From: Prevotella sp.
Lineage (GTDB): Bacteria > Bacteroidota > Bacteroidia > Bacteroidales > Bacteroidaceae
Assembly (NCBI GenBank): GCA_017477435.1
Contig: JAFUVV010000010.1
Location: 1 to 36,790, forward strand
Length of the DNA: 36,790 bases
Reading direction: 5' to 3'
The notes beneath the pieces were generated by a model. That model worked only from the letters and a program-made list of their open reading frames with translations, searched no databases and had not been told where the DNA came from. Of the stretch, positions 3,924-28,213 are shown in pieces (positions within the stretch are counted from its first letter, which is position 1; every line of letters begins with the position of its first letter). The position numbers and the translations under genes are program-made.

Positions 3924-4010
3924 AGTACATGGGCTTTGTACTCCGAGTACATGAACGTTGTACTCCAAGTACATGGCCTTTGTACTGCGAGTACAAAAGC
4001 CATGTACTGC
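3924..4010. repeat. Array A: four tandem 22-bp palindromic units (GTACT arms)
   Basis: Four head-to-tail units start at 3924, 3946, 3968 and 3990. Each is a 19-nt palindrome of form AGTACA-N7-TGTACT with a 3-nt linker, giving a 22-nt period. The seven-base cores are TGGGCTT, TGAACGT, TGGCCTT and, in the last unit, the inverted AAAGCCA. The arms are nearly invariant while core and linker vary, so pairing appears to be what is kept. The array is intergenic, between the terminator of the phosphatase gene and the susC promoter about 200 bp away. The rest of the 3610-4158 gap is AT-rich and shows no gene. Confidence 0.9.
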
Positions 4011-4097
4011 TTCCGACTGACGCCATCACGCCCACAGCCCCATCGCATCGCCATGTTCTACAAGCAGCCATAGCGAGAATGGAAAAGCTTAACGGCA

Positions 4098-4140
4098 TAA
4101 AAAACGAGTCCCACAAGCTCTGAAAAGCCTGTGGGACTCG
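4098..4140 (-). terminator. Rho-independent terminator of the phosphatase gene
   Basis: An 11-bp perfect stem, CGAGTCCCACA (4105-4115) pairing with TGTGGGACTCG (4130-4140), is followed on the minus strand by a run of T (4098-4104). It begins 18 bp after the TAG stop at 4159. Confidence 0.9.
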
Positions 4141-4158
4141 CTATTCACTGACGTGAGC

Positions 4159-5070
4159 CTATTTGAACACGTTCATCGGCACTCCGCGCCAGCTCTGCGG
4201 GGTCTCGAGGGCGAGAATCTTTGCCACCGTGGCAGCAACGTCGTACTGAATCATCGTCTCGGTGATTTCTTCACCCTTCTTTATTCCTTTACCCCAGATT
4301 ACGAACGGTGTCTCTATCTCGTAGAGCGAGTCGCCGCCGTGGCCAGTGCCGTTGTGTCCGTGGTCTGAGGTGAGTATTATCACGCTGTCGTCGTAGATAC
4401 CGGCCTCTTTCACTGCCTCAACAATCTGAGCCACCTGTCCGTCGGCATGCTCGAGGGCTGCGTAGTATTCCGGCGTGCCACGACCGAAGGCATGGCCAGC
4501 ATGGTCGATAGCGTCTATGTGGATGAACAGCAGTGCGGGCTTCTTTTCCTTGATATATTTCGTCGATTCTTCGACTATCTTCTCGGGGTTCTCTGATGCA
4601 TGGGCGATGCGCTTATAGTAGCTCAGGCACAGTGTGTCGGCATAGTTGAGGAAGTCTCCCCACTCGCACACCACACCCGTCTCGGCATCGGGATGCTGCT
4701 GGCGCATGAGGTGGAAGAATGTCGGCTGCTCGTTGTGCTCGGTCAGGAAGAGGGGCTTGAACGAAGGATTGGGGTCGTTGCCTGTATAGCCTGACGATTC
4801 GAGAGGTGTGCCGTTCATCTGCGCAGCCCAGTTAGGTCCGCTGTCCGAGGGACGGATAGTTCTCTTGAAGAGAGTGTAGCATCCTTCGGCCATAAACTGG
4901 CGGATGTTCGGTGCTTGGGCACTGTCCATACTGTACGATCCCCAGCCGTCGAGACCAATAATAATCACGTGCTTAGCGATGGCTTTCTTTCCGTTGTTGC
5001 AACTTGTTGCGACAAACATTGCAGCTCCCAATGTGAGAAGAGCTACGATAGATAATAAGATTTTCTTCAT
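4159..5070 (-). CDS. Alkaline-phosphatase-superfamily lipoprotein (phosphodiesterase/pyrophosphatase-like)
   Basis: This 303-residue protein has a lipoprotein signal with cysteine 24 (VATSC), so it is probably membrane-anchored in the periplasm. The alkaline phosphatase/nucleotide pyrophosphatase fold shows in its metal ligands: GLDGWG with Asp41; a PSDSGPNW segment whose Ser77 sits at the nucleophile position; HIDAIDHAGH with Asp186, Asp189, His190 and His193; SDHGHNG with Asp236 and His237; and a final GHGG with His244. It is compact compared with classical PhoA. It probably hydrolyses a phosphate mono- or diester; the substrate is not evident. The gene ends in TAG followed by a strong terminator, so TAG works as a stop here. 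It is a single-gene unit. Confidence 0.88.
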   Translation of the reverse strand: MKKILLSIVALLTLGAAMFVATSCNNGKKAIAKHVIIIGLDGWGSYSMDSAQAPNIRQFMAEGCYTLFKRTIRPSDSGPNWAAQMNGTPLESSGYTGNDPNPSFKPLFLTEHNEQPTFFHLMRQQHPDAETGVVCEWGDFLNYADTLCLSYYKRIAHASENPEKIVEESTKYIKEKKPALLFIHIDAIDHAGHAFGRGTPEYYAALEHADGQVAQIVEAVKEAGIYDDSVIILTSDHGHNGTGHGGDSLYEIETPFVIWGKGIKKGEEITETMIQYDVAATVAKILALETPQSWRGVPMNVFK

Positions 5071-5302
5071 TTTGATTGTTTATGGATGTTGTATAATAAT
5101 GATGATTCCAGGCTTTATTCATCTTTCATTCGTCGGCAAAGATACAGAAAAATGCCGCAACTTGCATTGTTTTCTCGACTATTTTATGAAAAAAAATGTT
5201 GTTGCATGCCTTTTTCTTCGTGCCGTGGTGGCTTTCCGCCATGAGCCGGGTAACAGCCTGCCGCCGCCTGCTTAATGCCTTGCCCCACCCGGCACATCGG
5301 CT

Positions 5303-6199
5303 TCATCCTGCCACTATCCTCTTTTGCTCTTCTATGTACTTCTTCAGTTCGTCGCCGCCGAGCACCTCGATGTCGGAATAGAGACCCATGACGAACCGCC
5401 CGATGCCGAGCAGACTGACAACATCGGTGTCCAACAACCAGTAGGTGTCGTCTTCCCGAGTGATGCAAGGCTCTGAGTCGGGGTGCTCTTCGAGGAGGAT
5501 ATTGAAGGCCAACTGCCCGAGGCGGAGCCTGACAGGGATGCGTTCCTCGCCGCTGAAACCGAACAGATCGGTGAAAATCTCTTTATGAAGGTCTTCGTGC
5601 ACCCAGGGCACGTCGATGATCTCAACCGATTTCATGCGCGACGTCTTGAACGTCTTGTTCATCCGTGTCTTTACCTCGTAGCAACGAACATCGAGTCCTT
5701 CGTTGAACAGGAGAAACGGTTCCACTATCCTGTCGCTTACGCTGTGGCTGTGAGGCGAGGAATATCCGTGGAGCGTGACCATCTTCTTCTGCGCCATGGC
5801 CTGCTTCAATACTTCGACGTTGCGTCCGCGCCGACGTTTCACAGCAGGGCTGGAGATGTCGCCCAGATTGTAGTAGCGTTCGAGTTTCGCCCGTATCGTC
5901 TGCGCCGTGAGGTTCTTCTCGCCGGCGCCGTCGAGCATCCGATGGACGAAGGCTGCCTCTGCCTCGCTGAGCACGATGTTCTCGTGGAGCTGGCGGAAGA
6001 ACGGCGACTGGCGGTCGATACGATATCGGGCGCCGCTCTTATGGAGGATGAAACCGCTGTCGCGAAGGTATTCAAGATAATAGTAGAGGCTCCGACGCGT
6101 TATATCGAGCTTGTCGGCAAGCTGCTGGGCGGTATAGCTCCCGCCGCCGGTGAGAAGGAGAATGAGGTCGAGCTCACGCCCGTATTTGTTCAGACGCAT
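5303..6199 (-). CDS. WYL-domain transcriptional regulator
   Basis: The 298-residue protein begins with a winged helix-turn-helix (about 5-60; QQLADKLDITRRSLYYYLEY is the recognition region). A WYL domain follows at about 128-195, with an aromatic, basic ligand-sensing core (HGYSSPHS, EPFLLFNEGLDVRCYEV, TRMNKTFKTSRM), and a C-terminal dimerisation extension completes it. WYL proteins are DNA-binding regulators whose WYL module senses nucleic acid or nucleotide ligands; many control DNA repair or defence. No defence genes adjoin it here, so its target is unknown. It is transcribed alone, about 230 bp upstream of the phosphatase gene on the same strand. Confidence 0.9.
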   Translation of the reverse strand: MRLNKYGRELDLILLLTGGGSYTAQQLADKLDITRRSLYYYLEYLRDSGFILHKSGARYRIDRQSPFFRQLHENIVLSEAEAAFVHRMLDGAGEKNLTAQTIRAKLERYYNLGDISSPAVKRRRGRNVEVLKQAMAQKKMVTLHGYSSPHSHSVSDRIVEPFLLFNEGLDVRCYEVKTRMNKTFKTSRMKSVEIIDVPWVHEDLHKEIFTDLFGFSGEERIPVRLRLGQLAFNILLEEHPDSEPCITREDDTYWLLDTDVVSLLGIGRFVMGLYSDIEVLGGDELKKYIEEQKRIVAG

Positions 6200-6357
6200 G
6201 GAATATAATTGAAAATTTATAATTGATAATTACGATATGAATTGGCCGATTGGAAACCTAAAAATAAAACCGTCAAAGTATTAAATCGTGAGATTCTTCG
6301 CTTTTCACTTTTCGTTTTTCACTCAGAGTGCAGCGATGTCATCTCTTCTACTTCTTT

Positions 6358-6960
6358 TCAGAAATCGAGAAACAGTTCTTGTGTGCCGAGGAGGTTGTAG
6401 CTCATGCGGTGATATGGCGTGGGTCCGTAGAGGCGTATGGCCTCGCGGTGTTTCTTCGTGGGATAGCCTTTGTTTGATGCCCAGTCGTACTGCGGGTACT
6501 TCTCAGCCAATTCGTTCATGTAGTCGTCGCGGAATGTCTTTGCCAGTATGCTCGCCGCAGCGATAGACTGGTATTTCCCGTCGCCCTTCACCACCGTGGT
6601 GTATGGCAGGTCGTGGTAGGGAGTGAAGCGGTTGCCGTCGACGATGATGGCCTCTGGCCGCACGCTGAGCTGATCCAGTGCGCGGTGCATGGCGAGCAGT
6701 GAGGCCCGCAGGATGTTTATCTTGTCTATCTCCTCCGGCGTTACCACTCCCACTGCCCACGCCCGGGCGTCGGCAACGATCTGCTCGCGAAGGGCATAGC
6801 GCTGCCGCTCGCTGAGCTGCTTGGAGTCGTTGAGCAGGGGGTTGTCGTAGTCGTCGGGCAGTATCACCGCCGCAGCATAGACGCTTCCTGCCAGGCATCC
6901 GCGCCCGGCTTCGTCGCAGCCGGCCTCCGTCAGGCCCATATAAAAGTGGCTTTTAAGCAT
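6358..6960 (-). CDS. rnhB: Ribonuclease HII
   Basis: A 200-residue protein of normal RNase HII length. The first catalytic motif [10 protein letters not shown] places the metal-binding Asp16-Glu17 pair, and the third acidic residue lies in [11 protein letters not shown]. The family signatures SILAKTFRD and the C-terminal [18 protein letters not shown] are present. It cleaves RNA-DNA hybrids and removes misincorporated ribonucleotides in the cytoplasm. The start [10 protein letters not shown] is supported by its position just before the catalytic core; the Met at residue 8 is an alternative. The gene stands alone and is divergent from the small gene at 7096. Confidence 0.97.
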
Positions 6961-7005
6961 TTTCTTCTATCTAAAATGTGAACAAATCTTAATATTTAAG
7001 CCTTT

Positions 7006-7060
7006 TTAACGAACTATTTTTCAAATTGAAGTATTATTTCCATTTCCAGTGATACGTTTG
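7006..7060 (+). promoter_or_regulatory. Promoter with conserved upstream motif, copy 1
   Basis: TTAACG (7006-7011), 16 nt, GAAGTATTATTTC (7028-7040), then a -7 box TACGTTTG (7053-7060) starting 25 nt after the first G of GAAG. The ATG of the 91-aa gene lies 35 nt downstream. The usual -33 TTTG is absent, so the upstream motif may replace it. Related copies lie near 8746-8800 and 23690-23745. Confidence 0.55.
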
Positions 7061-7095
7061 CATCGTGAAACATAAACGAACAAACAATCATAATT

Positions 7096-7371
7096 ATGGA
7101 AAATAACATCACCATCAGTCGTCATTTCCTCGTGCTCAGCACGATAGTGAACATCGTTTTAAGCAAGGTTTCTGTTCCTGTGGAGGCGCTCCGCAAGTAT
7201 TATTCGTCGGTCCTTGAGCGCGAGATTGACATGCGCCAGACGTGGCTTCTCATCAATGCCCAGGCCGCCTTCGTCTTTGCTGCGCTGCCTGCCGACGGGC
7301 CTCTCGTGTTGCGCATGGCATGCTGCGCGTGGTTCATCCATGCCGTACTGCTCTGCAAGCGGAATATCTGA
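7096..7371 (+). CDS. Small protein of unknown function, 91 aa
   Basis: The frame runs from ATG 7096 to TGA 7371 and is GC-rich like its neighbours. I do not recognise a family. The first 20 residues are moderately hydrophobic (HFLVLSTIVNIVLS); the centre holds a charged segment (EALRKYYSSVLEREIDMRQT); the last 40 residues are hydrophobic (LLINAQAAFVFAALPADG, VLRMACCAWFIHAVLLC) and could form one or two membrane helices before the basic end KRNI. It has its own promoter-like element at 7006-7060 and converges on sufS with only 19 bp between stops. Coding status is supported by promoter placement and by the lack of another frame explaining the interval. Confidence 0.7.
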   Translation: MENNITISRHFLVLSTIVNIVLSKVSVPVEALRKYYSSVLEREIDMRQTWLLINAQAAFVFAALPADGPLVLRMACCAWFIHAVLLCKRNI

Positions 7372-7390
7372 GTCGCCGACGCGGTGAGCA

Positions 7391-8608
7391 TCAGAACATC
7401 TTCCTCACTCGCTCTATTCCCTCCACGAGGACGTCGATCTCCTCGCGGGTGTTGTAGAGAGCCAGCGAGGCACGCACCGTCCCGAGCACCCCGAGGCGTT
7501 CCATGAGCGGCTGGGCACAGTGGTGACCGGTCCTGACGGCAATGCCCAGGCGGTCGAGGAGCGTGCCGAGGTCCATGTGGTGGATATCGCCGACGAGGAA
7601 GCTCACTACTGCATCTTTCTCCGGCTGAGTGCCGAATATGCGCATACCGTCTATGCTACTGAGCTTTTCAGTGGCGTAGGCGGTAAGTTGTTTTTCATAT
7701 TCACGGATGCTTTCAATCCCGATGGAATCGATGAATTTTATCGCTGTGGCGAGTCCGTGGGTGGCTATATAGTCGGGTGTGCCTGCCTCAAACTTGAAGG
7801 GCAGCTGGGCAAACGTGGTCTTCTCCATCGTCACGCTTTCAATCATCTCTCCCCCACCCTGATACGGCGGCATCTGCTCGAGCCATTTCTCCTTACCATA
7901 GAGTACTCCGACGCCCGTGGGACCGTACATCTTATGCCCCGAGAAGGCGAAGAAGTCGCAGTCGAGAGCCTGGACGTCTACTTTCATGTGGGGCACGCTC
8001 TGTGCTCCATCCACCAGCACGGGCACGCCATGGTCGTGGGCCTTGCGGATGATGTCGGCAACGGGATTCACCGTTCCGAGCACATTACTAACGTGGCAGA
8101 GGGAGAGCAAACGTGTCTTCTCGGTGAAAAAATCGTCGATTTCATCGAGAAGAAGCTCCCCGCTGTCGGATATCTTAAGAACCTTGATTTTTATTCCTCG
8201 CCTCTGCTGCTGCAGTTGCCACGGCACGATGTTGGAGTGATGCTCCATCTCGGTGACGATCACCTCGTCGCCCTCCTTCATGAAGGCGTCGCAGAACGAG
8301 CTGGCCACAAGGTTTATGCTCTCCGTTGTGCCGCGCGTGAAGACTATCTCGCTTGTGCTGCGCGCGCCGATGAACTGCCTGACAGCCTCGCGGGCTCCTT
8401 CGTGCAGCTCGGTAGCACGCTGCGAGAGGTAGTGCACACCACGGTGCACATTGGCGTTGGCATTCAGATATTCGTCGCGCATGGCATCGAGCACGCAGAG
8501 GGGCTTCTGCGTCGTGGCGGCATTGTCGAGATACACCAGCCGATGGCCGTACACCTCACGGCCGAGGATGGGAAACTCACTGCGAATCGTCTCTATATCG
8601 TATGTCAT
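7391..8608 (-). CDS. sufS: SufS-type cysteine desulfurase
   Basis: SufS is a PLP enzyme that takes sulfur from cysteine for iron-sulfur cluster assembly on SufBCD. With the start at 8608 (MTYDIETIRSEFPIL) it has 405 residues, normal for the family. It shows the PLP lysine in FSGHKMYGP (Lys226), PLP contacts in the TEMEHHSN segment and VLVDGAQSVPH, and the persulfide-carrying cysteine in RTGHHCAQP (Cys364). The frame is open upstream to 8674, but that ATG falls inside the predicted promoter (8645-8675), so 8608 is preferred. Its partners sufB, sufC and sufD are on the same strand about 15 kb away. No SufE or SufU is seen in the window. Confidence 0.95.
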   Translation of the reverse strand: MTYDIETIRSEFPILGREVYGHRLVYLDNAATTQKPLCVLDAMRDEYLNANANVHRGVHYLSQRATELHEGAREAVRQFIGARSTSEIVFTRGTTESINLVASSFCDAFMKEGDEVIVTEMEHHSNIVPWQLQQQRRGIKIKVLKISDSGELLLDEIDDFFTEKTRLLSLCHVSNVLGTVNPVADIIRKAHDHGVPVLVDGAQSVPHMKVDVQALDCDFFAFSGHKMYGPTGVGVLYGKEKWLEQMPPYQGGGEMIESVTMEKTTFAQLPFKFEAGTPDYIATHGLATAIKFIDSIGIESIREYEKQLTAYATEKLSSIDGMRIFGTQPEKDAVVSFLVGDIHHMDLGTLLDRLGIAVRTGHHCAQPLMERLGVLGTVRASLALYNTREEIDVLVEGIERVRKMF

Positions 8609-8632
8609 AAATGCGGAAATATATAAAAAATG

Positions 8633-8694
8633 GAAATAACGTTGCAAAATTAACTCTTTTGCTCTTAAAGGCAAAAAAAATGCAACGTTATTTC
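8633..8694 (-). promoter_or_regulatory. sufS promoter enclosed by a perfect 14-bp inverted repeat
   Basis: On the minus strand TTTG (8672-8675), 19 nt, TAATTTTG (8645-8652) is a perfect vegetative promoter about 40 nt before the sufS ATG. It is flanked by GAAATAACGTTGCA (8633-8646) and its exact reverse complement TGCAACGTTATTTC (8681-8694). One arm overlaps the end of the -7 box and the other lies just upstream of -33, as expected for paired operators. The arms could also form a hairpin in a transcript started further upstream. Confidence 0.65.
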
Positions 8695-8745
8695 AACGAT
8701 TTATTCACCACAACACAATAATTGGCTTTCATCTCTATTCCGCCA

Positions 8746-8800
8746 CAAAGATACCCGCTGCTATTGAAACAATACTTCAATTATGAAAAAGTTTCGTTAA
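8746..8800 (-). promoter_or_regulatory. Promoter-like element with conserved upstream motif, copy 2
   Basis: Reading the minus strand: TTAACG (8800-8795), 16 nt, GAAGTATTGTTTC (8778-8766), then TATCTTTG (8753-8746), again 25 nt from the first G of GAAG to the -7 box. It points toward sufS and would give a second, longer sufS leader of roughly 130 nt. Confidence 0.5.
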
Positions 8801-8852
8801 TTATAATTAATAAAGACTGTCTTCATTTACCGTATATCACACTCTCTTGTCA

Positions 8853-8981
8853 ACTATCAAAACCAGATAGCTGTACTATCAAAGCCAGATAGCAGTACTA
8901 TCAAAGCCAGATAGCAGCACTGTCAAAACCAGATAGCAGCACTATCAAAGCCAGATAGCAGCACTGTCTGGCTTTGACAGT
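8853..8981. repeat. Array B: five tandem 22-bp palindromic units plus one inverted unit (CTATC arms)
   Basis: Units start at 8853, 8875, 8897, 8919 and 8941, each with CTATC or CTGTC, a seven-base core (AAAGCCA or AAAACCA) and GATAG. A sixth unit at 8963-8981 is reversed: ACTGTC, core TGGCTTT, GACAGT. The period (22) and layout (6-7-6 plus 3-nt linker) equal those of arrays A, C and D, and the core AAAGCCA is the exact reverse complement of TGGCTTT found there. Only the arms differ. It lies between the divergent sufS and DUF5009 genes and ends 25 bp before the -33 box of the latter. Confidence 0.9.
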
Positions 8982-9006
8982 AGCGACACTTTTTTACCGT
9001 AAATTA

Positions 9007-9036
9007 TTTGTTGTTACGGAAAACTTTGTAATTTTG
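9007..9036 (+). promoter_or_regulatory. Promoter of the DUF5009/acyltransferase gene
   Basis: TTTG (9007-9010), 18 nt, then TAATTTTG (9029-9036). The leader to the ATG at 9064 is about 20 nt. Confidence 0.7.
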
Positions 9037-9063
9037 CCATAGACAAGAAAAACAGAAACTATT

Positions 9064-10203
9064 ATGGCAAAGAAAAAAACTCCATCCGAAGGGGGCCAGA
9101 CGAAAGGCCGCCTGCAATCGCTCGACGCCCTGCGCGGGTTCGACATGCTATTCATCATGGGTGGCGCCGGCCTCGTCACGGGTCTGGCCACGCTCATCCC
9201 CTGCCCTTTCACCGAGGCATTGGCCGGTCAGATGCACCACGTGGAGTGGCACGGTCTGGCATTCATGGACACCATCTTCCCGCTGTTCCTCTTCATTGCC
9301 GGAATCTCGTTCCCCTTTTCACTCGAGAAACAACGCAAGAGCGGAAAGAGCCGCGCGGCGATATACAAGAAGGTGATACGTCGCGGCATCATCCTTGTCC
9401 TGCTCGGCATCATCTACAACGGACTGCTCGTGAACCTCAACTTCGCCGAGCAGCGCTACGCCAGTGTGCTCGGACGCATCGGACTGGCGTGGATGTTCGG
9501 AGCACTGATATTCATGAACACACGCTGGAAGGCGCGGGCTGTAATCATCGGAGTGATCCTCGTGGGCTACTGGCTCGTGATGGGATTCATTCCAGCACCC
9601 GACGGCGGAGGTGCCGACATCTTCTCGGCCGAAGGGTCGATAGCGGGATGGGTCGACAGAACATTCCTCCCGGGGACGCTCTTCCACGGAAACATCGACC
9701 CCGAAGGGCTGCTCGGACTCTTCCCGGCCATCGCCACAGCACTGCTGGGAATGGCGACGGGAGAGTTTGTGAAGCTGAAGCGCGAAGGGCTGACCGAGAG
9801 CCGCAAGGTGGCATATATGATCTGTGCCGGGCTTGTGATGCTCGCAGTAGGACTACTGTGGAGCACCGTGTTCCCGATAAACAAGAAACTGTGGACCAGC
9901 ACGTTCGTGCTCGTCGTAGGGGCTTATTCGCTCATAATGTTTGCATTGTTCTATTGGATCATCGACGTCAGGAACCATCGCAGATGGACATTCTTCTTCG
10001 TCGTCATAGGCATGAACTCCATCACCATCTACCTTGCGCAGCGGTTCATACGCTTCTGGGACACCACGTGGGAGCTCGGCAACGGCATCAAGAACCTGCT
10101 CCCCGAACCCGCACAACCGCTGTTCAACTCAATGGTCTACGTGTCTCTATGCTGGCTCTTCCTCTATTTCCTCTACAAAAAGAAAGTATTCCTGAAAGTT
10201 TAG
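9064..10203 (+). CDS. DUF5009 / heparan-alpha-glucosaminide N-acetyltransferase-like membrane protein
   Basis: A 379-residue polytopic inner-membrane protein. The N-terminal signature RLQSLDALRGFDMLFIMGG and the following helix with MDTIFPLFLFIAGISFPFSL are hallmarks of the NagX/HGSNAT-like family (DUF5009, related to acyltransferase 3). About ten hydrophobic segments follow, ending in the basic tail YKKKVFLKV. Relatives transfer acetyl groups to amino sugars across a membrane. In Bacteroidetes such genes often accompany glycan-degrading loci, which fits the SGNH hydrolase just downstream and the GH2/DUF4838 operon further on. The gene stops at TAG, 71 bp before the SGNH gene; that spacer contains TTATCAATT-type AT-rich short repeats. 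Confidence 0.88.
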   Translation: MAKKKTPSEGGQTKGRLQSLDALRGFDMLFIMGGAGLVTGLATLIPCPFTEALAGQMHHVEWHGLAFMDTIFPLFLFIAGISFPFSLEKQRKSGKSRAAIYKKVIRRGIILVLLGIIYNGLLVNLNFAEQRYASVLGRIGLAWMFGALIFMNTRWKARAVIIGVILVGYWLVMGFIPAPDGGGADIFSAEGSIAGWVDRTFLPGTLFHGNIDPEGLLGLFPAIATALLGMATGEFVKLKREGLTESRKVAYMICAGLVMLAVGLLWSTVFPINKKLWTSTFVLVVGAYSLIMFALFYWIIDVRNHRRWTFFFVVIGMNSITIYLAQRFIRFWDTTWELGNGIKNLLPEPAQPLFNSMVYVSLCWLFLYFLYKKKVFLKV

Positions 10204-10274
10204 ATGTTGTGGAGTGAGGAGGGAAAAACGGTAATCATAATTATCAACTATCAATTTTTCAATTATCAATTATT

Positions 10275-11171
10275 ATGAAACGCATTGTTATATTGGCAAT
10301 TATCCTTACTGCCACATCGATGGCATTCGGCCAGAAGCAACAAGCAAGAGGCAAGAAGCAAGATACTTCATTATCCAGCCCCTCACTCTCTTCCGACATC
10401 CCCCTCCGGGGGGGCACGGGGGGCTATCCCATCGTGCATCCGTGGGCCGGCAAGCGCGTGGCATACATTGGCGACTCCATCACCGACCCCAACACTAAAG
10501 CCTCGGAAACTCCGTTCTGGCAACTGCTGCAGGACTGGCTCGGCATCACTCCTTACGTTTACGGTATCAGTGGACGGCAATGGGACGACGTGGTACCGCA
10601 GGCAAAAAGGCTGCAGGATGAACACGGCGACGACGTCGACGCCATAATCATATTCATGGGCACCAACGACTTCAACGCCGGCGTGCCTATCGGCGAGTGG
10701 TTCACGGAGAAGGTTGAGCGCGTGGAGGCAGCCACGGGCGAGATGAAGACAATGTATCCCCGTCGCCGACGCACACCAGTGATGACACGCGATACCTACT
10801 GCGGACGCATAAACATCGCACTGAGCACACTCAAGGCCATGTACCCCACAAAACAGATTGTGCTGCTCACTCCTCTGCATCGCGGCTATGCCAACTACGG
10901 CGACCGCAACGTCCAGCCCGACGAGAGCTACCAGAACCAGTGCGGCGAGTATATCGACGCCTACATAAAGAAGGTACGTGAGGCCGCCGACATCTGGGCA
11001 GTACCCGTCATCGACTGGGCAGCGCTCGGCGGACTGCAGCCGCTGCTGCCAGAGCACCTGCAGTTCTTCGGCAACGCCGAGTGGGACCAGCTGCACCCCA
11101 ACGGCAAAGGCCACACACGACTGGCAAAGACACTCGTCTATCAACTCCTTACTCTCCCCTGCACGTTTTAA
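10275..11171 (+). CDS. Secreted SGNH/GDSL-family hydrolase
   Basis: A 298-residue protein with a signal peptide (1-20, ending AFGQ) and SGNH blocks: YIGDSIT with nucleophile Ser68, the Gly of YGISGR near 97-100, GTND with Asn131, and DQLHPNGKGH with the Asp-His pair near the C-terminus. The family includes carbohydrate and acyl esterases, so deacylation of a glycan is likely. Residues 21-55 are an odd, low-complexity linker (KQQARGKKQD, SLSSPSLSS, PLRGGTGG). The underlying DNA resembles intergenic short repeats: AAGCAAGAGGCAAGAAGCAA and a C-run/G-run element. That segment looks like captured repeat DNA. It is probably co-transcribed with the upstream acyltransferase gene. Confidence 0.9.
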   Translation: MKRIVILAIILTATSMAFGQKQQARGKKQDTSLSSPSLSSDIPLRGGTGGYPIVHPWAGKRVAYIGDSITDPNTKASETPFWQLLQDWLGITPYVYGISGRQWDDVVPQAKRLQDEHGDDVDAIIIFMGTNDFNAGVPIGEWFTEKVERVEAATGEMKTMYPRRRRTPVMTRDTYCGRINIALSTLKAMYPTKQIVLLTPLHRGYANYGDRNVQPDESYQNQCGEYIDAYIKKVREAADIWAVPVIDWAALGGLQPLLPEHLQFFGNAEWDQLHPNGKGHTRLAKTLVYQLLTLPCTF

Positions 11172-11240
11172 CCATAGCAGTCATTTCAATTGATATATTT
11201 GCGGAGAGTTGTTATTTACTCTTTCTTTCAGATGAAATAA

Positions 11241-11286
11241 AGACATCCGAGAACAGGAACGAATTCATTCCGATTCTCGGATGTCT
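11241..11286. terminator. Bidirectional terminator between convergent genes
   Basis: A 13-bp perfect stem, AGACATCCGAGAA (11241-11253) with TTCTCGGATGTCT (11274-11286), lies between the stop of the SGNH gene and that of the convergent gene ending at 11323. A T-rich stretch (GCTTTTTGCG) follows on the plus strand and TTATTTCATC on the minus strand. Confidence 0.85.
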
Positions 11287-11322
11287 GCTTTTTGCGATTT
11301 TAAGATATTGAAAAACTTTCTG

Positions 11323-11796
11323 TTATTTGTTAAACAGAGAAGGATAAATATTCTCCAAATAATTTGTCCACCAGTTTTGCCCCCATGTTGCAAATAAAAT
11401 AACTATCAAAGCAGATATTACGTAAAGTGATACTTTTCTTTTATAATAGCATAAGCCCGTTAATAAAACAGATAAGAAAACTGTGACATGAACCATATCC
11501 ATGGTTACCAAAGATATGGGGTGATTCATATAGAATGGATGCATTAGGACAAAGCGTCCAAACAAAACTGCTAAAATTATAGAGCAAATAGATAATTTGT
11601 CATCACAATTATTCTTTTTCAATAAAAAGATAGTCCATGCAGCGAAAATAACAGATTCTAAAATTGCTCGTAAAATATAGTTCTGCTCATTATAAACACT
11701 ACATTTGGAAGCAATCATAATAATTAATGATGAAATGAAAGCTATAACAACTGTCAGCAAAGAATAATAAACAAGATTTAAATTCTTAGTTTTCAT
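11323..11796 (-). CDS. Membrane protein of unknown function, last gene of the AT-rich operon
   Basis: The 157-residue product has about five hydrophobic segments (near residues 10-30, 42-60, 70-88, 98-113 and 121-140). A short polar tail, WGQNWWTNYLENIYPSLFNK, ends the protein. I do not recognise the family. It begins 28 bp after the stop of the fulvocin C-like lipoprotein gene in the same strand and is clearly in the same operon. Its composition is AT-rich like the rest of 11.3-15.6 kb and unlike the GC-richer flanks. A role as an accessory, export or immunity partner of the cysteine-rich protein is possible only by position. Confidence 0.75.
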   Translation of the reverse strand: MKTKNLNLVYYSLLTVVIAFISSLIIMIASKCSVYNEQNYILRAILESVIFAAWTIFLLKKNNCDDKLSICSIILAVLFGRFVLMHPFYMNHPISLVTMDMVHVTVFLSVLLTGLCYYKRKVSLYVISALIVILFATWGQNWWTNYLENIYPSLFNK

Positions 11797-15700: not shown

Positions 15701-16728
15701 AACGTGAGTTCGACGAATTCAGAATAATGCAAGCTGTGTGTCTAATGTTCTTCGAACATTGATACACGGCTTTTTCGGAAAACAACAGTATGCTGCCAAT
15801 GCTCCCAGCATGTTAACGACGAAGTTGTCAAAGCATCTGTGCCTGGAGTGCTCGATCTGTGCGATGTTCTTCAACTCGTCATTGACGGTCTCTATGATGG
15901 CCCTCTTCCTGAGCAGCAGTTTGTCAGAGACGCTCATCAGCGCGCCTTTCATGTTGTCCCTCAGCTTCGTGATGAGCTGTATGCCGTCGACGAAAAGCCT
16001 TTCAAAGAGGTTCTTGCCGATATATCCCTTGTCCGCGACGAGTTTCCCGTAGATGAACTCCACGAAAGCCTTGTATTCGAGAGGCTTCCTGTCATCCACA
16101 TCCCCAGGCGTTATCATGAAGTTGAGCAGCTCTCCCTTCTCGTTGCAGATAAGGTGCAGCTTAAACCCGAAGAACCAGCCCATGGAACACTTGCCCCTTT
16201 GGGCGATTCCCCTGAAGACCTTGTGCATGTGGATTCTCTGGTTCCTGCACACCCTGAGCGGCGTGCTGTCAACGAAACTCACGCCCGTACACTTGCCAAG
16301 CAGCACCTTCTTGACGAACAGCGCCAACGGAACGGCCACATCGCGCTCCAGCTCCACAAACCGGTTGTATGAGACAACGCGAAGGAACAGATGGCGCATG
16401 TGCTTACAGACGGATTCCAGGTAGAAATGCTTCAGGCAGCGGTAGCCGGAGTCGTGGAAAAGTATCATGATTAGCATCACTTCCGACTTCGACAGTGTCG
16501 AGTCACGGTGATAATTGCGCTTTTTGGCCTCCTTTATGGTATATTTTTCCATCATGGCATCAAAAAACTTGCAGAAATCGTCTGCAATACAAAATAATTC
16601 CGTAACTTTGTCCTCGGTGATCATAGTGATTATTGTTTGTGAAACTTTTGTTTTTAGCACTATAAAGTTACAACAACTTTCGCTAATTACCAAATTTTCA
16701 GATAGTTATATTTCGTCGAACTCACGTT
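15701..16728 (-). mobile_element. Intact IS982-family insertion sequence
   Basis: The element is bounded by perfect 17-bp inverted repeats, AACGTGAGTTCGACGAA (15701-15717) and its complement (16712-16728), and encodes one transposase on the minus strand. The four bases ATTT occur directly outside both ends and may be the target duplication, though the AT-rich flank makes this uncertain. Its GC content is higher than the surrounding AT-rich DNA. The right end directly abuts a truncated signal-peptidase gene. Confidence 0.93.
15719..16624 (-). CDS. IS982-family transposase
   Basis: With start ATG 16624 (MITEDKVTELFCIADDFCKFF) it has 301 residues, normal for IS982 transposases; the open frame reaches back to 16693 but the family start is at 16624. 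The DDE catalytic triad is visible: Asp in SFVDSTPLRVCRN, Asp in LVADKGYIGK, and Glu in RKRAIIETVNDELKN. HRDSTLSKSEVMLIMILFHD is the usual N-terminal block. No frameshift is seen, so the enzyme should be active. The gene nearly fills the element. Confidence 0.95.
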   Translation of the reverse strand: MITEDKVTELFCIADDFCKFFDAMMEKYTIKEAKKRNYHRDSTLSKSEVMLIMILFHDSGYRCLKHFYLESVCKHMRHLFLRVVSYNRFVELERDVAVPLALFVKKVLLGKCTGVSFVDSTPLRVCRNQRIHMHKVFRGIAQRGKCSMGWFFGFKLHLICNEKGELLNFMITPGDVDDRKPLEYKAFVEFIYGKLVADKGYIGKNLFERLFVDGIQLITKLRDNMKGALMSVSDKLLLRKRAIIETVNDELKNIAQIEHSRHRCFDNFVVNMLGALAAYCCFPKKPCINVRRTLDTQLALF

Positions 16729-22226: not shown

Positions 22227-22262
22227 AATCAATATTTATATGTGTATTTTTACTATTTTGTC

Positions 22263-23327
22263 CTATCTTTTTGTCTTTCGCCCAGCTTTCTTTGGGCGGA
22301 ACGATGCCAGCGCGTCGCCATATTCCTTCAGGTAATATGCGTTGGGGTAGGTGCTGAAATATGTCGAATCCATATACACGGCGAAGGAGGTGATGTTGCG
22401 TATTCCCATCGAGGCATACGTCTCGATGTCGGAGCGGAACACATCACCATGCCATGGTAGTTCTATTGCAGGTTTTTTGTATCTGCTTGCCAGCGACACG
22501 TCGAGCCAATACTCGAGCACCACTGCCGTCTTTGCTGGGAACACCTCAAGGTTCTCTTTCAGGTAAGTGAGATTCTTGGCGTTGTTGCCCATCTCGCGCA
22601 CATAGGCAGTGGAGTCGGTGATGGGCTTGTCCCATCTGCGATGTACGGGGGCAAACTCGAGGAATATGCCTTTATGCGGCTTCACCTTGCGCGGGGCCTG
22701 CAATGTTGGCATATAAGCCAGATGTGCCAGCATGGCCTTGGGGTCGTAGGTGCGGATGGCCTCGATCATTCTGTTCTCAATGACAAGTGCCTGTTCGCTT
22801 GCCGTCAGATGTGAGCAGTCAGGGCATTGACAAGTCAGCGAGCAGTCGTCGAGCCAGAGATAGTACCGGTGATTCGTTGCGGGCAGATGGCGGGCATAGT
22901 ACAGTGCACGGCTGGCGATGGTGTCGAGTGCGCGTGCAGAGCTCACACAGCAGTTGAAATCGGCAGTGCGGCGGCCGTGCTCGTTCATTCGGAACATTGT
23001 GGAATCGACGGCAAACAGGTTGCGCGGAAGGAGAATGCTCATCGAGTGAAGCTGGTGCTCAACCTCTATTCCATACTTGCGGCAGTCGGCTTGAAACTTG
23101 CGCCCTTTCTCCGATTCCCAGAAACGAAGCACCTGGTCGGGGGTGATGTGCGTGCCCAAGGTGTTTATTCCGTTCTCGAAAGCAATGCGTGGCCAGTCGG
23201 CTGTCTCTAAGTCGGGCACCGACAACACCGCACCGCGCATCTTGAAATATGGTTTCTGTTTGCCGTATCCGGCAGTAATCATCAGCAGAAACAGTAAAAG
23301 GAATAACGACTTAAGATGTAGTTTCAT
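22263..23327 (-). CDS. Secreted DUF4838-like (glycosidase-related) protein
   Basis: The preferred start is ATG 23327 (MKLHLKSLFLLLFLLM), giving 354 residues with a clear signal peptide; a longer frame to 23369 overlaps the promoter and lacks support. The body resembles the alpha/beta barrel of DUF4838 proteins: a FWESEKGRKFQADCRKYGIE segment, NCCVSSARAL, YYLWLDDCSLTCQCPDCSHL, and HRRWDKPITD. The paired cysteines around CQCPDC are typical. DUF4838 proteins accompany glycosidases in Bacteroidetes polysaccharide-use loci; activity is not established. It is the first gene of the operon with the GH2 enzyme and ends in TAG. Confidence 0.78.
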   Translation of the reverse strand: MKLHLKSLFLLLFLLMITAGYGKQKPYFKMRGAVLSVPDLETADWPRIAFENGINTLGTHITPDQVLRFWESEKGRKFQADCRKYGIEVEHQLHSMSILLPRNLFAVDSTMFRMNEHGRRTADFNCCVSSARALDTIASRALYYARHLPATNHRYYLWLDDCSLTCQCPDCSHLTASEQALVIENRMIEAIRTYDPKAMLAHLAYMPTLQAPRKVKPHKGIFLEFAPVHRRWDKPITDSTAYVREMGNNAKNLTYLKENLEVFPAKTAVVLEYWLDVSLASRYKKPAIELPWHGDVFRSDIETYASMGIRNITSFAVYMDSTYFSTYPNAYYLKEYGDALASFRPKKAGRKTKR

Positions 23328-23358
23328 ATCTCGATGGATTGTCTGAGGATTTCGCAGA

Positions 23359-23389
23359 CAAAGATACAAATAATAATCAGTGGAACAAA
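23359..23389 (-). promoter_or_regulatory. Promoter of the DUF4838-GH2 operon
   Basis: On the minus strand TTTG (23386-23389), 19 nt, then TATCTTTG (23359-23366): a perfect vegetative promoter about 30 nt before ATG 23327, which supports that start. Confidence 0.75.
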
Positions 23390-23485
23390 GAAATGCACGA
23401 GAAATTATCGGCCACGTCCGTCCGCTTTCCCAGATAACGCCGCCAAACGAAAGCCTTTAAAGAAAGAGAAAGCCGCTATGAAAAC

Positions 23486-23573
23486 AGTACATGGCTTTTG
23501 TACTAACAGTACATAGGCTTTGTACTCGGAGTACATGGCTCTTGTACTCGAAGTACATGAGCCTTGTACTGCA
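23486..23573. repeat. Array C: four tandem 22-bp palindromic units (GTACT arms)
   Basis: Units start at 23486, 23508, 23530 and 23552, each AGTACA-N7-TGTACT plus a 3-nt linker. The cores are TGGCTTT, TAGGCTT, TGGCTCT and TGAGCCT. The array lies about 100 bp upstream of the DUF4838-GH2 promoter and is intergenic. The first core is the exact reverse complement of the main core in array B. Confidence 0.9.
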
Positions 23574-23689
23574 GCCAAGAAAAGCAAGAGGAAAAGCTGA
23601 TGGGAAATACCGACGGCGCCTACAAAGCCTCTCTGTCTGCTCAAAAATTATCCGCATCGCAGTCAAAAAAGCCTGATATTTAAGATTAT

Positions 23690-23745
23690 TTAACGGTATT
23701 TCTGCCACTATAGAAGTATTATTTCAATTTACCATATTATTTTTG
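23690..23745 (+). promoter_or_regulatory. Promoter-like element with conserved upstream motif, copy 3
   Basis: TTAACG (23690-23695), 17 nt, GAAGTATTATTTC (23713-23725), then TATTTTTG (23738-23745), again 25 nt from GAAG to the -7 box. No plus-strand gene follows: a transcript would run about 100 nt into the hairpin at the 3' end of sufD, so it could make a short RNA or one antisense to sufD. ATATTTAAG precedes it, as in copy 1. Confidence 0.45.
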
Positions 23746-23825
23746 CTGCAGAAAAAGAAAGTTGCCATAGACGTGCAGCGACTGAGAAATAAAAAAAAAT
23801 GCTAAATTAAAGGACAATACTTGTA

Positions 23826-23858
23826 TAGGCTGCAAACTACTTACAGAGTTTGCAGCCT
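23826..23858 (-). terminator. Hairpin overlapping the sufD stop codon
   Basis: AGGCTGCAAAC (23826-23836) pairs perfectly with GTTTGCAGCCT (23848-23858); the sufD TAG (23837-23839) is in the loop. There is no strong T-tract on either side, so termination may be partial, or the hairpin may protect the message end. Confidence 0.6.
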
Positions 23859-25177
23859 TCACATTTGTTCAGCTCGCCGCGAAAGCGCTTATCTACAAGA
23901 TAGCGAAGGCGGTCGCGGAGAGGAGTAAGCTCAATCTTGTCGATCACCTCGCCCACAAACGCTATCTGCAACAGCAGCTTTGCCTCTTCAAGACTGATAC
24001 CACGCTGACGCATGTAGAACAGCGCCTGATCGTTGAGCTGCCCGACGGTGGAACCGTGAGAGCACTTCACGTCGTCGGCATAGATCTCGAGCATCGGCTG
24101 GGTAAACATACGTGCCTCGCGGGTGGCACAGAGATTCTGGTTGACTTCCTCTGAGACGGTCTGCTGAGCATCCTGCCTGACGAGCACACGGCCGGCAAAG
24201 GCACCAGTCGACTTGTCGTCGAGGACATACTTATACAGCTCGTGACTCGTGCAATGCGAGACTTGATGGTCGACGAGAGTGTTGTTGTCTACATGCTGCT
24301 CCTTGTCGGAGATCACGCAGCCTCCCAACGAGCACTCGGCCCCTTCGCCACGGAACGCCAGGCGAAGCGTGTTGCGCGTCACGCCGTTGTGAAGGGTGAT
24401 GACATTGTGAACCACACGGCTGTCGGCCTGCTGATTAATGTAGACATTGCTGAAACGGGTGTTCTTGTAATGAGTCTCTTCGAGCGAATGTAGTTCGAGC
24501 GACGCATTGTGTCCGACGAATGCCTCAACCACCTCTGTGGCGAGGAAGGGACGGTCGTCGGAGGCATGGTCGCAGAACAGCAACTTCACTGAGGCTCCTT
24601 CCTCGACGATGATCAGCACACGGCGATTGACCATCAGGTCGACATCCGAACGTAGGATATTCACCACCTGTATGGTCTTCTCTGCAACGACGCCCTTCGG
24701 CACGTAGACAAGCAGCCCATCCTGGGCGAGCATCGTATTGAGGGCAGTGACAGCATCACCGATAAAATCGGCGATTTTTGAATAATACCTCTCGATGAAA
24801 CCGGGATTTTTAGAAGAATAGGCTTTCAGAGAATCGACTATCACTCCGTCAACAACATGCTTGGGAATCTCTGAAAGAAGCGGCTGGTCGTTGACCACAA
24901 AATAGAGCTGCGTGCTCAGGTTTGGCACGTCGCAGCGGAAGGCCTCGTAAGGATCGACGGGTATTGCGAGTCTGTTCAGATTGAGACCATAGTCGGGAGC
25001 GAAGAGTGTGGGCACATCGGTGTAGCGGTATTCCTCGGTTTTCTTCGTCGGGAACCCCTTGCTGCGGAACGCCTCGAATGCCTCATCGCGCACGGCATTC
25101 ATCGGTGTCGCGCTATGACTGCAGATCATATCGCGGCACTGCTCGTAGAGGTCGATATATTGCTGTTCGCTATTCAT
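23837..25177 (-). CDS. sufD: SufD, Fe-S cluster assembly scaffold subunit
   Basis: The 446-residue protein is a SufB/SufD beta-helix family member. Its N-terminal region (RSKGFPTKKTEEYRYTDVPT) and the core (VNNTLVDH-type stretch QHVDNNTLVDHQVSHCTSHE, then FAGRVLVRQDAQQTVSEEVN and KCSHGSTVGQLNDQALFYMR) are typical of SufD. SufD joins SufB and SufC in the cytosolic scaffold that builds iron-sulfur clusters with sulfur from SufS. The C-terminus ends with a cysteine cluster CEGCKLCK before TAG. The ATG overlaps the sufC stop by 4 bp (ATGA), so the two are translationally coupled. Confidence 0.96.
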   Translation of the reverse strand: MNSEQQYIDLYEQCRDMICSHSATPMNAVRDEAFEAFRSKGFPTKKTEEYRYTDVPTLFAPDYGLNLNRLAIPVDPYEAFRCDVPNLSTQLYFVVNDQPLLSEIPKHVVDGVIVDSLKAYSSKNPGFIERYYSKIADFIGDAVTALNTMLAQDGLLVYVPKGVVAEKTIQVVNILRSDVDLMVNRRVLIIVEEGASVKLLFCDHASDDRPFLATEVVEAFVGHNASLELHSLEETHYKNTRFSNVYINQQADSRVVHNVITLHNGVTRNTLRLAFRGEGAECSLGGCVISDKEQHVDNNTLVDHQVSHCTSHELYKYVLDDKSTGAFAGRVLVRQDAQQTVSEEVNQNLCATREARMFTQPMLEIYADDVKCSHGSTVGQLNDQALFYMRQRGISLEEAKLLLQIAFVGEVIDKIELTPLRDRLRYLVDKRFRGELNKCEGCKLCK

Positions 25178-25929
25178 TCTTCGCCGATTTCCTCTTTAAT
25201 CCAATCGTAGCCTCGCTCCTGAATTTCTTTTGCCAGTTCTGGGCCGGCGGTCTTCACTATTCGTCCCTGATAGAGCACGTGCACCACGTCGGGACGTATC
25301 ATCTCGAGCAGGCGGTCGTAGTGGGTTATCACGATGCACGATGACTCCGACGTGCGCAGTTTGTTCACTCCCTCGGCCACGATGCGCATGGCATCGACGT
25401 CAAGACCTGAGTCTGTCTCGTCGAGGATCGACAGTTTAGGCTCGAGCATTGCCATCTGGAATATCTCGTTGCGTTTCTTCTCTCCCCCGCTGAAGCCCTC
25501 GTTGACAGAGCGATGTGAGAGTTTCGAGTCGAGATCAACAATCTTCCGTTTCTCGCGCATCAGCTTCATGAAGTCGGATGCATTAAGTGGCTCTTGCCCG
25601 AGGAAGCGGCGCTTCTCGTTGATGGCGGCTTTCATGAAGTTTGTCATCGATACACCAGGAATCTCCACCGGATACTGGAACGAGAGGAACAGCCCCTCAT
25701 GGGCACGGTCTTCGGGTTTCATCTCGAGCAAGTTCTTGCCGTTGAACCACGCCTCACCCTCCGTCACTTCGTAGAGAGGGTTGCCTGTCAGCACGGCGCT
25801 CAGCGTGGACTTGCCCGACCCGTTGGGCCCCATGATGGCATGGGTCTCACCGTCATTGACGACGAGGTCGATGCCCTTCAATATCTCCTTGCCTGCAATG
25901 GAGGCATGCAAATTCTTTACTTCAAGCAT
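25174..25929 (-). CDS. sufC: SufC, Fe-S cluster assembly ATPase
   Basis: A 251-residue ABC-type ATPase. It has Walker A GPNGSGKST (34-42), a Q-loop FLSFQYPVEIPG specific to SufC, the signature FSGGEKKRNE, Walker B LSILDETDSGLD, and the switch histidine in VITHYDR. SufC drives conformational change of the SufB2C2D/SufBC2D scaffold in the cytosol and has no membrane partner. It sits between the deaminase gene (42-bp gap) and sufD (4-bp overlap). No abnormality is visible. Confidence 0.97.
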   Translation of the reverse strand: MLEVKNLHASIAGKEILKGIDLVVNDGETHAIMGPNGSGKSTLSAVLTGNPLYEVTEGEAWFNGKNLLEMKPEDRAHEGLFLSFQYPVEIPGVSMTNFMKAAINEKRRFLGQEPLNASDFMKLMREKRKIVDLDSKLSHRSVNEGFSGGEKKRNEIFQMAMLEPKLSILDETDSGLDVDAMRIVAEGVNKLRTSESSCIVITHYDRLLEMIRPDVVHVLYQGRIVKTAGPELAKEIQERGYDWIKEEIGEE

Positions 25930-25971
25930 TTTACTGTCTTCTTTGGTAAATATGATACCGTTTTACGCTCA

Positions 25972-26451
25972 TCAATATTCTATTTTATCTTCCTTTTCCT
26001 TCCACAGCTGGAACGTGTGCAGTGCCTCGTCGTGCAGCAGGGGGATGATGGGCACCGAGCGGTCTTCCATCTTTTTGTCGAGCTCTTCGTAGATGAAATC
26101 ATCGGCAAATCCAACGTTGCCTACGTCCTTGCGGGTGTTGCCGTAATAGATACGACCGATGCGGGCCCAGTAGATAGCACCGAGACACATCGGGCACGGT
26201 TCGCTTGAGGAGTAGATGACGCAGCCGCTGAGGTCGAAGGTATGCAGTCGCCGGCATGCCTCGCGAATTGTGTTCACCTCGGCATGGGCCGTGGGGTCGT
26301 TGTCGGTTGTCACGCTATTCGAGCTTCCCGCAACGATCTATCCGTCTTTCACAATGACAGCGCCGAAGGGTCCACCGCCATTCTTCACACTGTCATCGGC
26401 CAGCCGGATGGCCTTGCGCATGAATTCTTTATCTTTGTCCGTAATATTCAT
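25972..26451 (-). pseudogene. Guanine/nucleoside deaminase (CDA superfamily) interrupted by an in-frame TAG
   Basis: Reading from ATG 26451 (MNITDKDKEFMRKAIRLADD) gives a 159-residue guanine-deaminase-like protein except that codon 38 (26338-26340) is TAG. The same frame continues on both sides of it: GGGPFGAVIVKDG before and IVAGSSNSVTTDNDPTAHAE after. The zinc site HAE and PCPMC, and the C-terminal LWKEKEDKIEY, all lie after the stop. A restart at ATG 26313 would give 113 residues lacking the first strand and helix of the fold. The position normally holds a charged or polar residue such as Glu, Lys or Gln. The gene lies inside the suf operon, 25 bp after sufB and 42 bp before sufC. Confidence 0.85.
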
Positions 26452-26476
26452 AGCTATTCACTTAGCTTTTAGTTTT

Positions 26477-27934
26477 TTATCCTACAGTGCCTTCGAGTGA
26501 CACACTCAACAGTTTCTGTGCCTCTACGGCAAACTCCATCGGGAGTTTGTTAAGCACTTCCTTGGCATATCCGTTCACTATCAGGCCGACAGCCTGCTCG
26601 GTGGGTATGCCGCGCTGGTTGCAATAGAAGAGCTGGTCTTCGGAAATCTTCGACGTCGTGGCTTCATGCTCGACGATTGCCGACTCGTTGTGCACGTCCA
26701 TATATGGGAATGTGTGTGCTCCGCACCTACTGCCGAGGAGCAGCGAGTCGCACGACGAGTAGTTGCGAGCATTATCGGCACCAGGGGCCACACGCACGAG
26801 TCCGCGATAGGAGTTCTGCGAATGTCCGGCCGAGATGCCTTTTGAGATTATCGTCGACGTCGTGTTCCGCCCAAGGTGTATCATCTTCGTGCCGGTGTCG
26901 GCTTGCTGGAAATTGTTTGTCACTGCCACGCTGTAGAACTCGGCATGCGACCCGTCGCCCCGGAGAACACACGATGGATATTTCCACGTCACGGCACTCC
27001 CCGTCTCCACCTGGGTCCACGACAGCTTTGAGTTGACACCCCGCAGCTCGCCTCGCTTAGTCACGAGATTGAGCACACCGCCACGACCTTCCTCGTCGCC
27101 AGGGTACCAGTTCTGCACCGTGCTGTATTTCACCTCGGCATTATTCATCACTACAATCTCGACAATCGCCGCGTGAAGCTGGTTCTCGTCGCGCATCGGA
27201 GCCGTGCAGCCCTCGAGATAGGAGACGTAGCTGTCGTCGTCGGCCACGATGAGAGTGCGCTCAAACTGACCGGTGTTCCTCGCATTGATGCGGAAATAGC
27301 TGCTCAGCTCCATCGGACAACGCACACCCTTGGGGATATACACAAACGATCCGTCGGAAAAAACCGCAGAGTTGAGCGCTGCAAAGAAATTATCTCGATA
27401 TGGCACGACCGTGCCGAGATACCGTCTGACCAGGTCGCCATGCTCCTTGATTGCCTCGCCAATGGAACAGAAGACGACACCCTTCTCGCGCAGTTTCTCC
27501 TTGAAAGTGGTCTTCACCGACACCGAGTCCATGATTGCATCCACCGCCGTGTTTCCGCTCAGTGCCAGTCGTTCCTCAAGAGGGATGCCGAGCTTGTCGA
27601 AGGTCTTTTCAAGTTCAGGGTCGATCTTGCCGTCGCCCTTCGGTTTCTTCGCCATCGGGTCGGCATAGTAGGAAATGCTCTGATAGTCGATGGGGGGCAG
27701 TTGCAAGTGTCCCCAGTCGGGCTGACTAAGCGACTGCCAATGACGGAAAGATTTCAAACGGAAATCCAGCATCCAGTCAGGCTCACCCTTCTTGGCAGAG
27801 ATCAGTCGGACAATGTCCTCATTCAGTCCGACTGGAATCACCTCAGTATGCACGTCGGTAGTGAAGCCGAACTCATATTTCTTCTCGGCCACACTGCGCA
27901 CCAGGGCGTTGCCATCGCCTCTTGTCGCTTGCAT
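26477..27934 (-). CDS. sufB: SufB, Fe-S cluster assembly scaffold subunit
   Basis: With ATG 27934 the protein has 485 residues, the normal SufB length. It begins [20 protein letters not shown] and continues [20 protein letters not shown]. Conserved blocks include [45 protein letters not shown], and [20 protein letters not shown] near the C-terminus. The frame is open to ATG 28012, but the extra residues ([19 protein letters not shown]) are a repeat-derived low-complexity tract, and a -7 box at 28000-28007 lies downstream of that ATG. SufB receives sulfur and builds the nascent cluster with SufC and SufD. It heads the sufB-deaminase-sufC-sufD operon. Confidence 0.95.
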
Positions 27935-27999
27935 CTTGCTACTTGCCTCTTGCATCTTACTACTTGCCTCTTGCTCTTCGCTTCTTTTTTTACGGGGGA

Positions 28000-28007
28000 C
28001 AAAATTA
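28000..28007 (-). promoter_or_regulatory. Putative -7 box of the suf operon
   Basis: TAATTTTG on the minus strand, identical to the -7 boxes of susC and sufS here. No TTTG is found 19-20 nt upstream, so activity may need an activator. Its position argues for the sufB start at 27934 or 27955 over 28012. Confidence 0.4.
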
Positions 28008-28128
28008 CACATAATTCTCGAGATACGAGCCTTTCAGCTCAAAGAAAATATCATCTGCCCCAGCACAGAGCCACGCAGGAGAGGCATGGAAAACTGCTTT
28101 GCAGCACTCAAACCAAGCAACCTGACTC

Positions 28129-28213
28129 AGTACATGAGCTTTATACTTCGAGTACATAGCCTTTGTACTCCGAGTACATGGGCTTTGTACTGCCAGTACA
28201 TGGCCCATGTACT
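28129..28213. repeat. Array D: four tandem 22-bp palindromic units (GTACT arms)
   Basis: Units start at 28129, 28151, 28173 and 28195, each AGTACA-N7-TGTACT with a 3-nt linker. The first unit has one arm change (TATACT). Cores are TGAGCTT, TAGCCTT, TGGGCTT and TGGCCCA. It lies between the stop of the AsmA-like gene and the sufB promoter region, about 120 bp upstream of the latter. Confidence 0.9.

Follow-up and report, generated by a model that had tools for sequence, protein, structure and literature searches.

The window analysed here, a stretch of 36,790 nucleotides (nt) from a Prevotella sp. genome (GenBank assembly GCA_017477435.1, contig JAFUVV010000010.1), carries three intergenic arrays of a short palindrome that a sequence-only reading had described as four AGTACA-N7-TGTACT units each, joined by a 3-nt linker. 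We followed these arrays through the source genome (G000) and related genomes, where arrays of the same period adjoin genes of the protein family DUF6078 (PF19555). This link is the main result and was beyond the window's reach, since neither of the two DUF6078 genes of G000 (contigs C30 and C10) lies there. The arrays of the window and the open reading frames (ORFs) beside them are as follows.

3924..4008, no strand: array A, four 19-bp palindromes AGTACA-N7-TGTACT with 3-nt linkers at period 22 (unit starts 3924, 3946, 3968 and 3990), between the start of ORF 280..3609 (minus strand) and the stop of ORF 4159..5070 (minus strand)
3918..4014, no strand: array A plus 6 bp on each side, the sites of a flank consensus in other copies
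23486..23570, no strand: array C, four units at period 22 (starts 23486, 23508, 23530 and 23552), between ORFs 22263..23369 and 23837..25177 (both minus strand)
28129..28213, no strand: array D, four units at period 22 (starts 28129, 28151, 28173 and 28195), between ORFs 26477..28012 and 28247..30154 (both minus strand)
8853..8981, no strand: a further array with other arms, (A)CTATC-N7-GATAG(C), six 22-nt units of which the last has a reversed core, in a divergent intergenic region between ORFs 7391..8674 (minus strand) and 9064..10203 (plus strand)

The three AGTACA arrays are present as described, with the exact motif in 11 of their 12 units; the exception, the unit at 28129, has one arm mismatch. 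Dinucleotide shuffles gave a mean of 0.79 matches and a maximum of 3. The end given earlier for array D (28213) holds, whereas those given for A and C (4010 and 23573) include a trailing linker, their last units ending at 4008 and 23570. The observation that arms are near-invariant while cores drift was borne out over 176 units: identity is 92.6-100% in the arms and 55-89% in the core, which reads roughly W-R-R-N-Y-Y-W. A weak inverted flank (YYGGCNGC before the array, GCNGCCRR after it) accompanies the copies, with little beyond it; array A fits this consensus partially, on the right side only.

The G000 assembly comprises 2.32 Mb in 62 contigs and is 77.9% complete. It holds 550 exact single AGTACA-N7-TGTACT units (reversed pattern, 0), 343 exact two-unit matches, and 160 four-unit matches with up to three mismatches, a count in which one six-unit array appears three times. 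Array structure was read in 813,474 bases of stretches partly picked around known arrays, with units accepted down to 8 of 12 arm matches. These stretches contain 78 arrays, 44 of them with perfect arms, and scaling the 550 exact units by the 262 exact units in these 78 gives an estimate of ~164 arrays for the genome. Four units at exactly the 22-nt period were scored in 74 arrays, and 6, 5, 3 and 2 units in one each; the array scored as two really has four, two of them carrying 1-nt insertions, and that scored as three is a hybrid. Besides the arrays there were two lone units, one apparently spurious. The random variation in unit counts that would have spoken against the earlier reading was not seen. 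The earlier argument against recent duplication stands in part: the arrays are old enough for their cores to have drifted, but they have the appearance of a single four-unit block copied to many places.

The exact two-unit AGTACA pattern was found in one of 201 genomes of the host's bacterial family, namely G000. A looser three-unit GTACA pattern, for which control matches occurred in one genome (G373, 2), was found in 7 of 399 genomes, convincingly in G108, G379, G159 and G220 beside G000. The three-unit matches in G198 and G359 (3 mismatches) have the appearance of another repeat and were left uncounted. Six further stretches in the genome_contigs collection come from two uncultured Prevotellaceae metagenome-assembled genomes (MAGs), RUG12886 (G201) and RUG11493 (G202). 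In the viral_contigs collection the sole match of the pattern was a five-unit GGTACA/TGTACT-type array on an IMG/VR contig (L086, 6681-6787).

In G159 and G220, which belong to different genera, a four-unit array begins at the stop codon of a DUF6078 gene or no more than a few bases away from it. The protein has ~145 amino acids and four invariant cysteines, which are probably zinc-binding; two array-adjacent proteins score 116 bits against the Pfam model, for which the curated cut-off is 27. DUF6078 is present in 45 of 101 sampled genomes of the family, and a family-wide search revealed that its genes adjoin 22-nt arrays with other arms. Scanning 400 bp either side of each gene for the best self-match at periods 10-60, we found a best tandem period of 22 or 44 at 36 of 48 loci, with 28 or more of 44 matches in every case, against 0 of 48 for control stretches 700-1400 bp away. 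Within the first set of loci, 7 of the 16 genomes had been selected for having arrays; the second set, 29 loci chosen regardless of arrays, gave period 22 or 44 as best in 22 (L191 and L193 being near-duplicates). Further loci from other collections, comprising four plasmid-labelled records (including Treponema saccharophilum) and five faecal scaffolds, had a best period of 22 or 44 directly downstream of the gene in 9/9 cases. At 29 of 38 loci the palindromy of the consensus unit exceeds that of column shuffles (z>2).

An array may precede or follow its DUF6078 gene; in most loci outside G000 it comes after the stop codon. The two G000 paralogues, which are 37% identical, both have array units 215, 193 and 149 nt upstream of the ATG, and the 171-nt unit is present at one locus and degraded at the other. 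Their arms differ, being AGTACA at the C30 gene and AGTATC at the C10 gene. No credible relative of DUF6078 was found in Pfam beyond the family itself, or in NCBIfam, PADLOC and PHROGs; the best profile match to a solved structure (E 0.11) is not credible, and no paper in the literature library searched mentions 'DUF6078'.

Other features were seen around these genes. Downstream of DUF6078 in G220 (L176), the 22-nt array is succeeded by another tandem repeat, of period 20 (CCTAGGAAGA-like), and a 26-nt repeat with 44/44 self-matches lies between DUF6078 and the 22-nt array in G053 (L197). In Parabacteroides distasonis records, DUF6078 adjoins a RhuM-family gene (L269) and a type I restriction subunit (L271), in one record each.

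Arm sequence tracks the protein. Comparing protein identity with array similarity over 37 loci gave a Mantel r of 0.288 (P 0.0002; Spearman 0.16), and pairs below 50% protein identity gave an r of 0.176 (P 0.001); the correlation as a whole is modest, and it is most evident between more similar proteins. The DUF6078 proteins of G060, G086 and G124, for example, are 53-66% identical and all have arms AGTCCG/CGGACT. A gene that owns the array next to it predicts further copies of those arms in its own genome and in no other, and we tested this prediction for three further arm types. AGTATC gave 41 two-unit matches at ~21 places in G000 and 0 in the control; this second family includes a CTATC-type variant, to which the window array at 8853-8981 belongs. 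Searched in 20 genomes, AGTCCG gave 30 matches at 11 places in G086, 10 at 5 places in G060, 1 in G379 and 0 in 16 others, and TTACC, likewise in 20 genomes, gave 34 matches at 10 places in G202, 11-12 at 9 places in G150, 2-3 at one place in G043 and 0 in 17 others. Dispersal was thus seen in 5/6 gene-genome pairs, or strictly 6/7 when both G000 genes are counted (G000 C30 and C10, G086, G060, G202 and G150, the exception being G124). Together with arm conservation, this tracking of the cognate protein family upholds the view of the arrays as a functional multi-site element. At one G000 position (C56:68785, in L162), AGTATC and AGTACA half-sites are mixed within one unit of a hybrid array.

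The anatomy of dispersed copies in two genomes connects them with the gene. The gene-bearing locus of G202 has the order left part, DUF6078, array, and six of nine dispersed copies have one identical junction from the left part to the gene's last nucleotides and the array; of the others, one has a different junction and two are array only. The shared junction is best explained by a single deletion followed by spread, although the gene might, less probably, have inserted into an older copy. G150 copies are ~800 bp long with sharp ends and terminal inverted repeats of ~200 nt (77-79% identical ungapped, four copies); two of them keep broken C-terminal DUF6078 remnants, and the G150 DUF6078 locus has the left end and the array-bearing part in common with the copies. 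Dispersed copies in G202 and G150 therefore look like deletion derivatives of a DUF6078 element.

We propose, with a probability of about 0.6, that the arrays are miniature inverted-repeat transposable element (MITE)-like, gene-less copies of a small element that combines a DUF6078 gene with an array of its own, and that their units would serve as protein-bound DNA sites. A DUF6078 dimer would bind the 19-bp palindrome, with four such sites in tandem at a spacing of two helical turns, as suggested by the palindromy, the spacing and the conservation of the arms. Each protein would recognise its own arms, so that protein and array, which are associated across loci, diverge together, and copies that had lost the gene would spread in trans in the fashion of MITEs. 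By this route the AGTACA family of the C30 gene may have reached its ~164 copies in G000, and AGTATC with its variants, the family of the C10 gene, ~21 places.

Several results weigh against this proposal. The 22-nt period was not the best repeat at 12 of the 48 DUF6078 loci: at two of these (G220 and G053) a 22-nt array is present but another repeat scores higher, the periods in G048 and G176 are 21 and 31, and 8 are without a strong repeat. AGTCCG arms in G124 gave two matches, at the gene's own locus only, with no dispersed copy. Of the two MAGs, G202 holds ~8 AGTACA arrays although the array at its single DUF6078 gene is of another arm type, and G201 has arrays but no DUF6078 match. Copies in G000 have only ~8 bp of flank in common, and at 62 G000 arrays direct repeats of at least 5 nt, as expected of target-site duplications, did not exceed their frequency in re-paired flanks. 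The profile searches above revealed no catalytic relative of DUF6078. Beside the G150 DUF6078 gene itself, a right-hand terminal repeat was looked for without success, so another transposase could move the G150 copies.

This last point leads to the possible, though doubtful, alternative that DUF6078 and its array are a passenger, for instance a self-regulating DNA-binding cassette, in elements of an ordinary transposase, the array being just an operator. In its favour, no catalytic relative of this small protein is known, the terminal inverted repeats of G150 copies are long, like those of ordinary transposons, and the arrays at both G000 DUF6078 loci are in an operator-like position, 149-215 nt before the ATG. 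However, most other DUF6078 loci have the array after the stop codon, and most G000 copies consist of the array and ~8 bp, which leaves nothing else for a transposase to recognise. A bolder form of our own proposal would make DUF6078 a new minimal mobility protein, small, cysteine-rich and unrelated to the DDE, HUH and recombinase families, that addresses its own array, moves gene-less copies and enforces their spacing through target immunity, with specificities co-drifting across Bacteroidota and at least one spirochaete; we hold this to be improbable, somewhat more so than the passenger alternative.

The placement of the arrays raises the question of a host function. With our own gene calls (76% coding), all 65 arrays tested fall outside called genes, and 63 classified arrays fall into 32 tandem, 22 divergent and 9 convergent gaps. 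Divergent gaps are enriched (22/63 with arrays against 26/176 among array-free gaps of at least 100 bp, P 0.0015). The arrays also keep apart: the smallest of 48 inter-array gaps is 2,486 bp, whereas under uniform placement 12 gaps should be shorter than this, and under an intergenic-only null 7-9 of 41 gaps should be below 2.9 kb but none is (P at most 0.0003). Second-family arrays are mostly more than 3.5 kb from any AGTACA array, the exceptions being one at 1,035 bp and one hybrid.

Both patterns would suit a domesticated host function, in which genome-wide DUF6078 platforms, perhaps spread as an element and now selected by the host, insulate transcription units, regulate divergent promoters or organise the nucleoid. 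Conservation after insertion points the same way. G201 is a sister of G000 at ~83% identity, and its stretches at 96-98% identity have arrays in common with G000; in five such orthologous arrays the arms differ at 1/240 positions and the core and linkers at 9/185 (P 0.003). However, the avoidance of one array by another may also stem from target immunity, and a test on the variation coefficient of the gaps fell short of significance (P 0.05 and 0.18). None of the 200 other family genomes searched has the AGTACA two-unit pattern, and G201 stretches of sister type are without the array at both comparable loci; this patchy occurrence disfavours an essential host role. A domesticated function is thus conceivable but unlikely, about on a par with the passenger alternative. 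A clean empty site was sought in G201, where the intergenic DNA is too diverged for an insertion point to be defined. On G201 contig C27 (L109, ~15564), identity to G000 falls from 97.6% to 80.9% immediately past an array, which locates an apparent introgression or assembly breakpoint at that array.

Whether the units act as DNA or RNA was addressed through compensatory changes. Shuffle tests over 45 arrays, within units, across the array and between flanks, gave nothing consistent: unit pair 7-13 pairs less often than chance and pairs 8-12 and 9-11 at chance, while pair 4-16 (P 0.013, through a single G-C unit) and flank pair 7 (P 0.08 for Watson-Crick pairs, 0.010 with G-U) are isolated among ~40 tests. 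Because compensatory changes are lacking, the arms would seem to be a protein's recognition sequence and not a stem maintained by pairing. Of the two forms of selection proposed from the window, a dimeric site is hence favoured by arm conservation within loci and by arms that track the protein, and base pairing is not. Type III toxin-antitoxin loci have tandem repeats beside a small gene, and the palindromes next to DUF6078 resemble them, which would fit a structured four-hairpin RNA such as a repeat RNA antitoxin adjoining its protein. That idea, also raised from the window, is now very improbable given the lack of covariation in unit pairs 7-13, 8-12 and 9-11, the absence of any Rfam match at the gathering score in the window, and the occurrence of arrays on either side of DUF6078 genes.

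Two other origins were rejected. A clustered regularly interspaced short palindromic repeats (CRISPR) array does not fit units only 3 nt apart, dispersed at ~164 places and without unique spacers of repeat length. As for a phage origin, no DUF6078 relative was confirmed in viral_contigs by three alignments (12, 600 and 81 candidate stretches), and the five records of a phage collection that carry DUF6078 are faecal scaffolds with neither verification nor annotation. Elsewhere in the window, the ORF at 15719-16693 (minus strand) resembles an IS982-like insertion-sequence transposase.

These results offer a testable function for a protein family of unknown function. Because protein and arms stand side by side at each locus, hundreds of natural protein-site pairs could be collected for working out a recognition code, and G000, with its many spaced copies and kept arms, is a test case for dispersed repeats entering chromosome organisation.

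Among known systems, MITEs are matched by the gene-less deletion derivatives of G202 and G150, which share ends with the gene-bearing element, and by the terminal inverted repeats and sharp ends of G150 copies. The G000 arrays, which have a weak 8-bp inverted flank, differ from MITEs in consisting of little more than the array, in showing no target-site duplication and in having no known transposase. The BrickBuilt MITE of Porphyromonas gingivalis is likewise an intergenic Bacteroidales element with a tandem repeat, of 23 nt, framed by a leader and tail that some copies lack (PMC4596501). It is unlike the present arrays in that its repeat number varies from 1 to 22.8, no cognate gene was reported for it, and its terminal repeats match IS5-family ISPg elements (PMC4596501).

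The closest parallel is with repetitive extragenic palindromic (REP) sequences and their REP-associated tyrosine transposases (RAYTs), described as palindromes in intergenic DNA with a single-copy gene that adjoins its cognate repeat and co-diverges with it (PMC8266576, PMC3116915). Dispersed intergenic palindromes, a gene beside its cognate repeat and joint divergence of protein and repeat are common to both systems. That the arrays are themselves REP-type repeats spread by a Y1/HUH transposase is the least probable of the alternatives: Y1_Tnp (PF01797) matches occur in G000 (four), G108, G379 and G201, but none was found in array-bearing G220, G159 and G202, and an array was present in only 1/10 Y1 loci fetched (within a ~3.3-kb G000 locus), against 36/48 DUF6078 loci. 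The suggestion of a REP-like element was close in spirit. REP palindromes have a conserved tetranucleotide tag at their side (GTAG or CGTC), where the present arrays have the flank consensus YYGGCNGC/GCNGCCRR. Here the cognate protein is DUF6078 and not a Y1/HUH enzyme, and the unit is a tandem array of 22-bp period, usually with four palindromes; the array system works like REP/RAYT yet is not a member, and is apparently an independent second case of a gene with its own dispersed palindromes.

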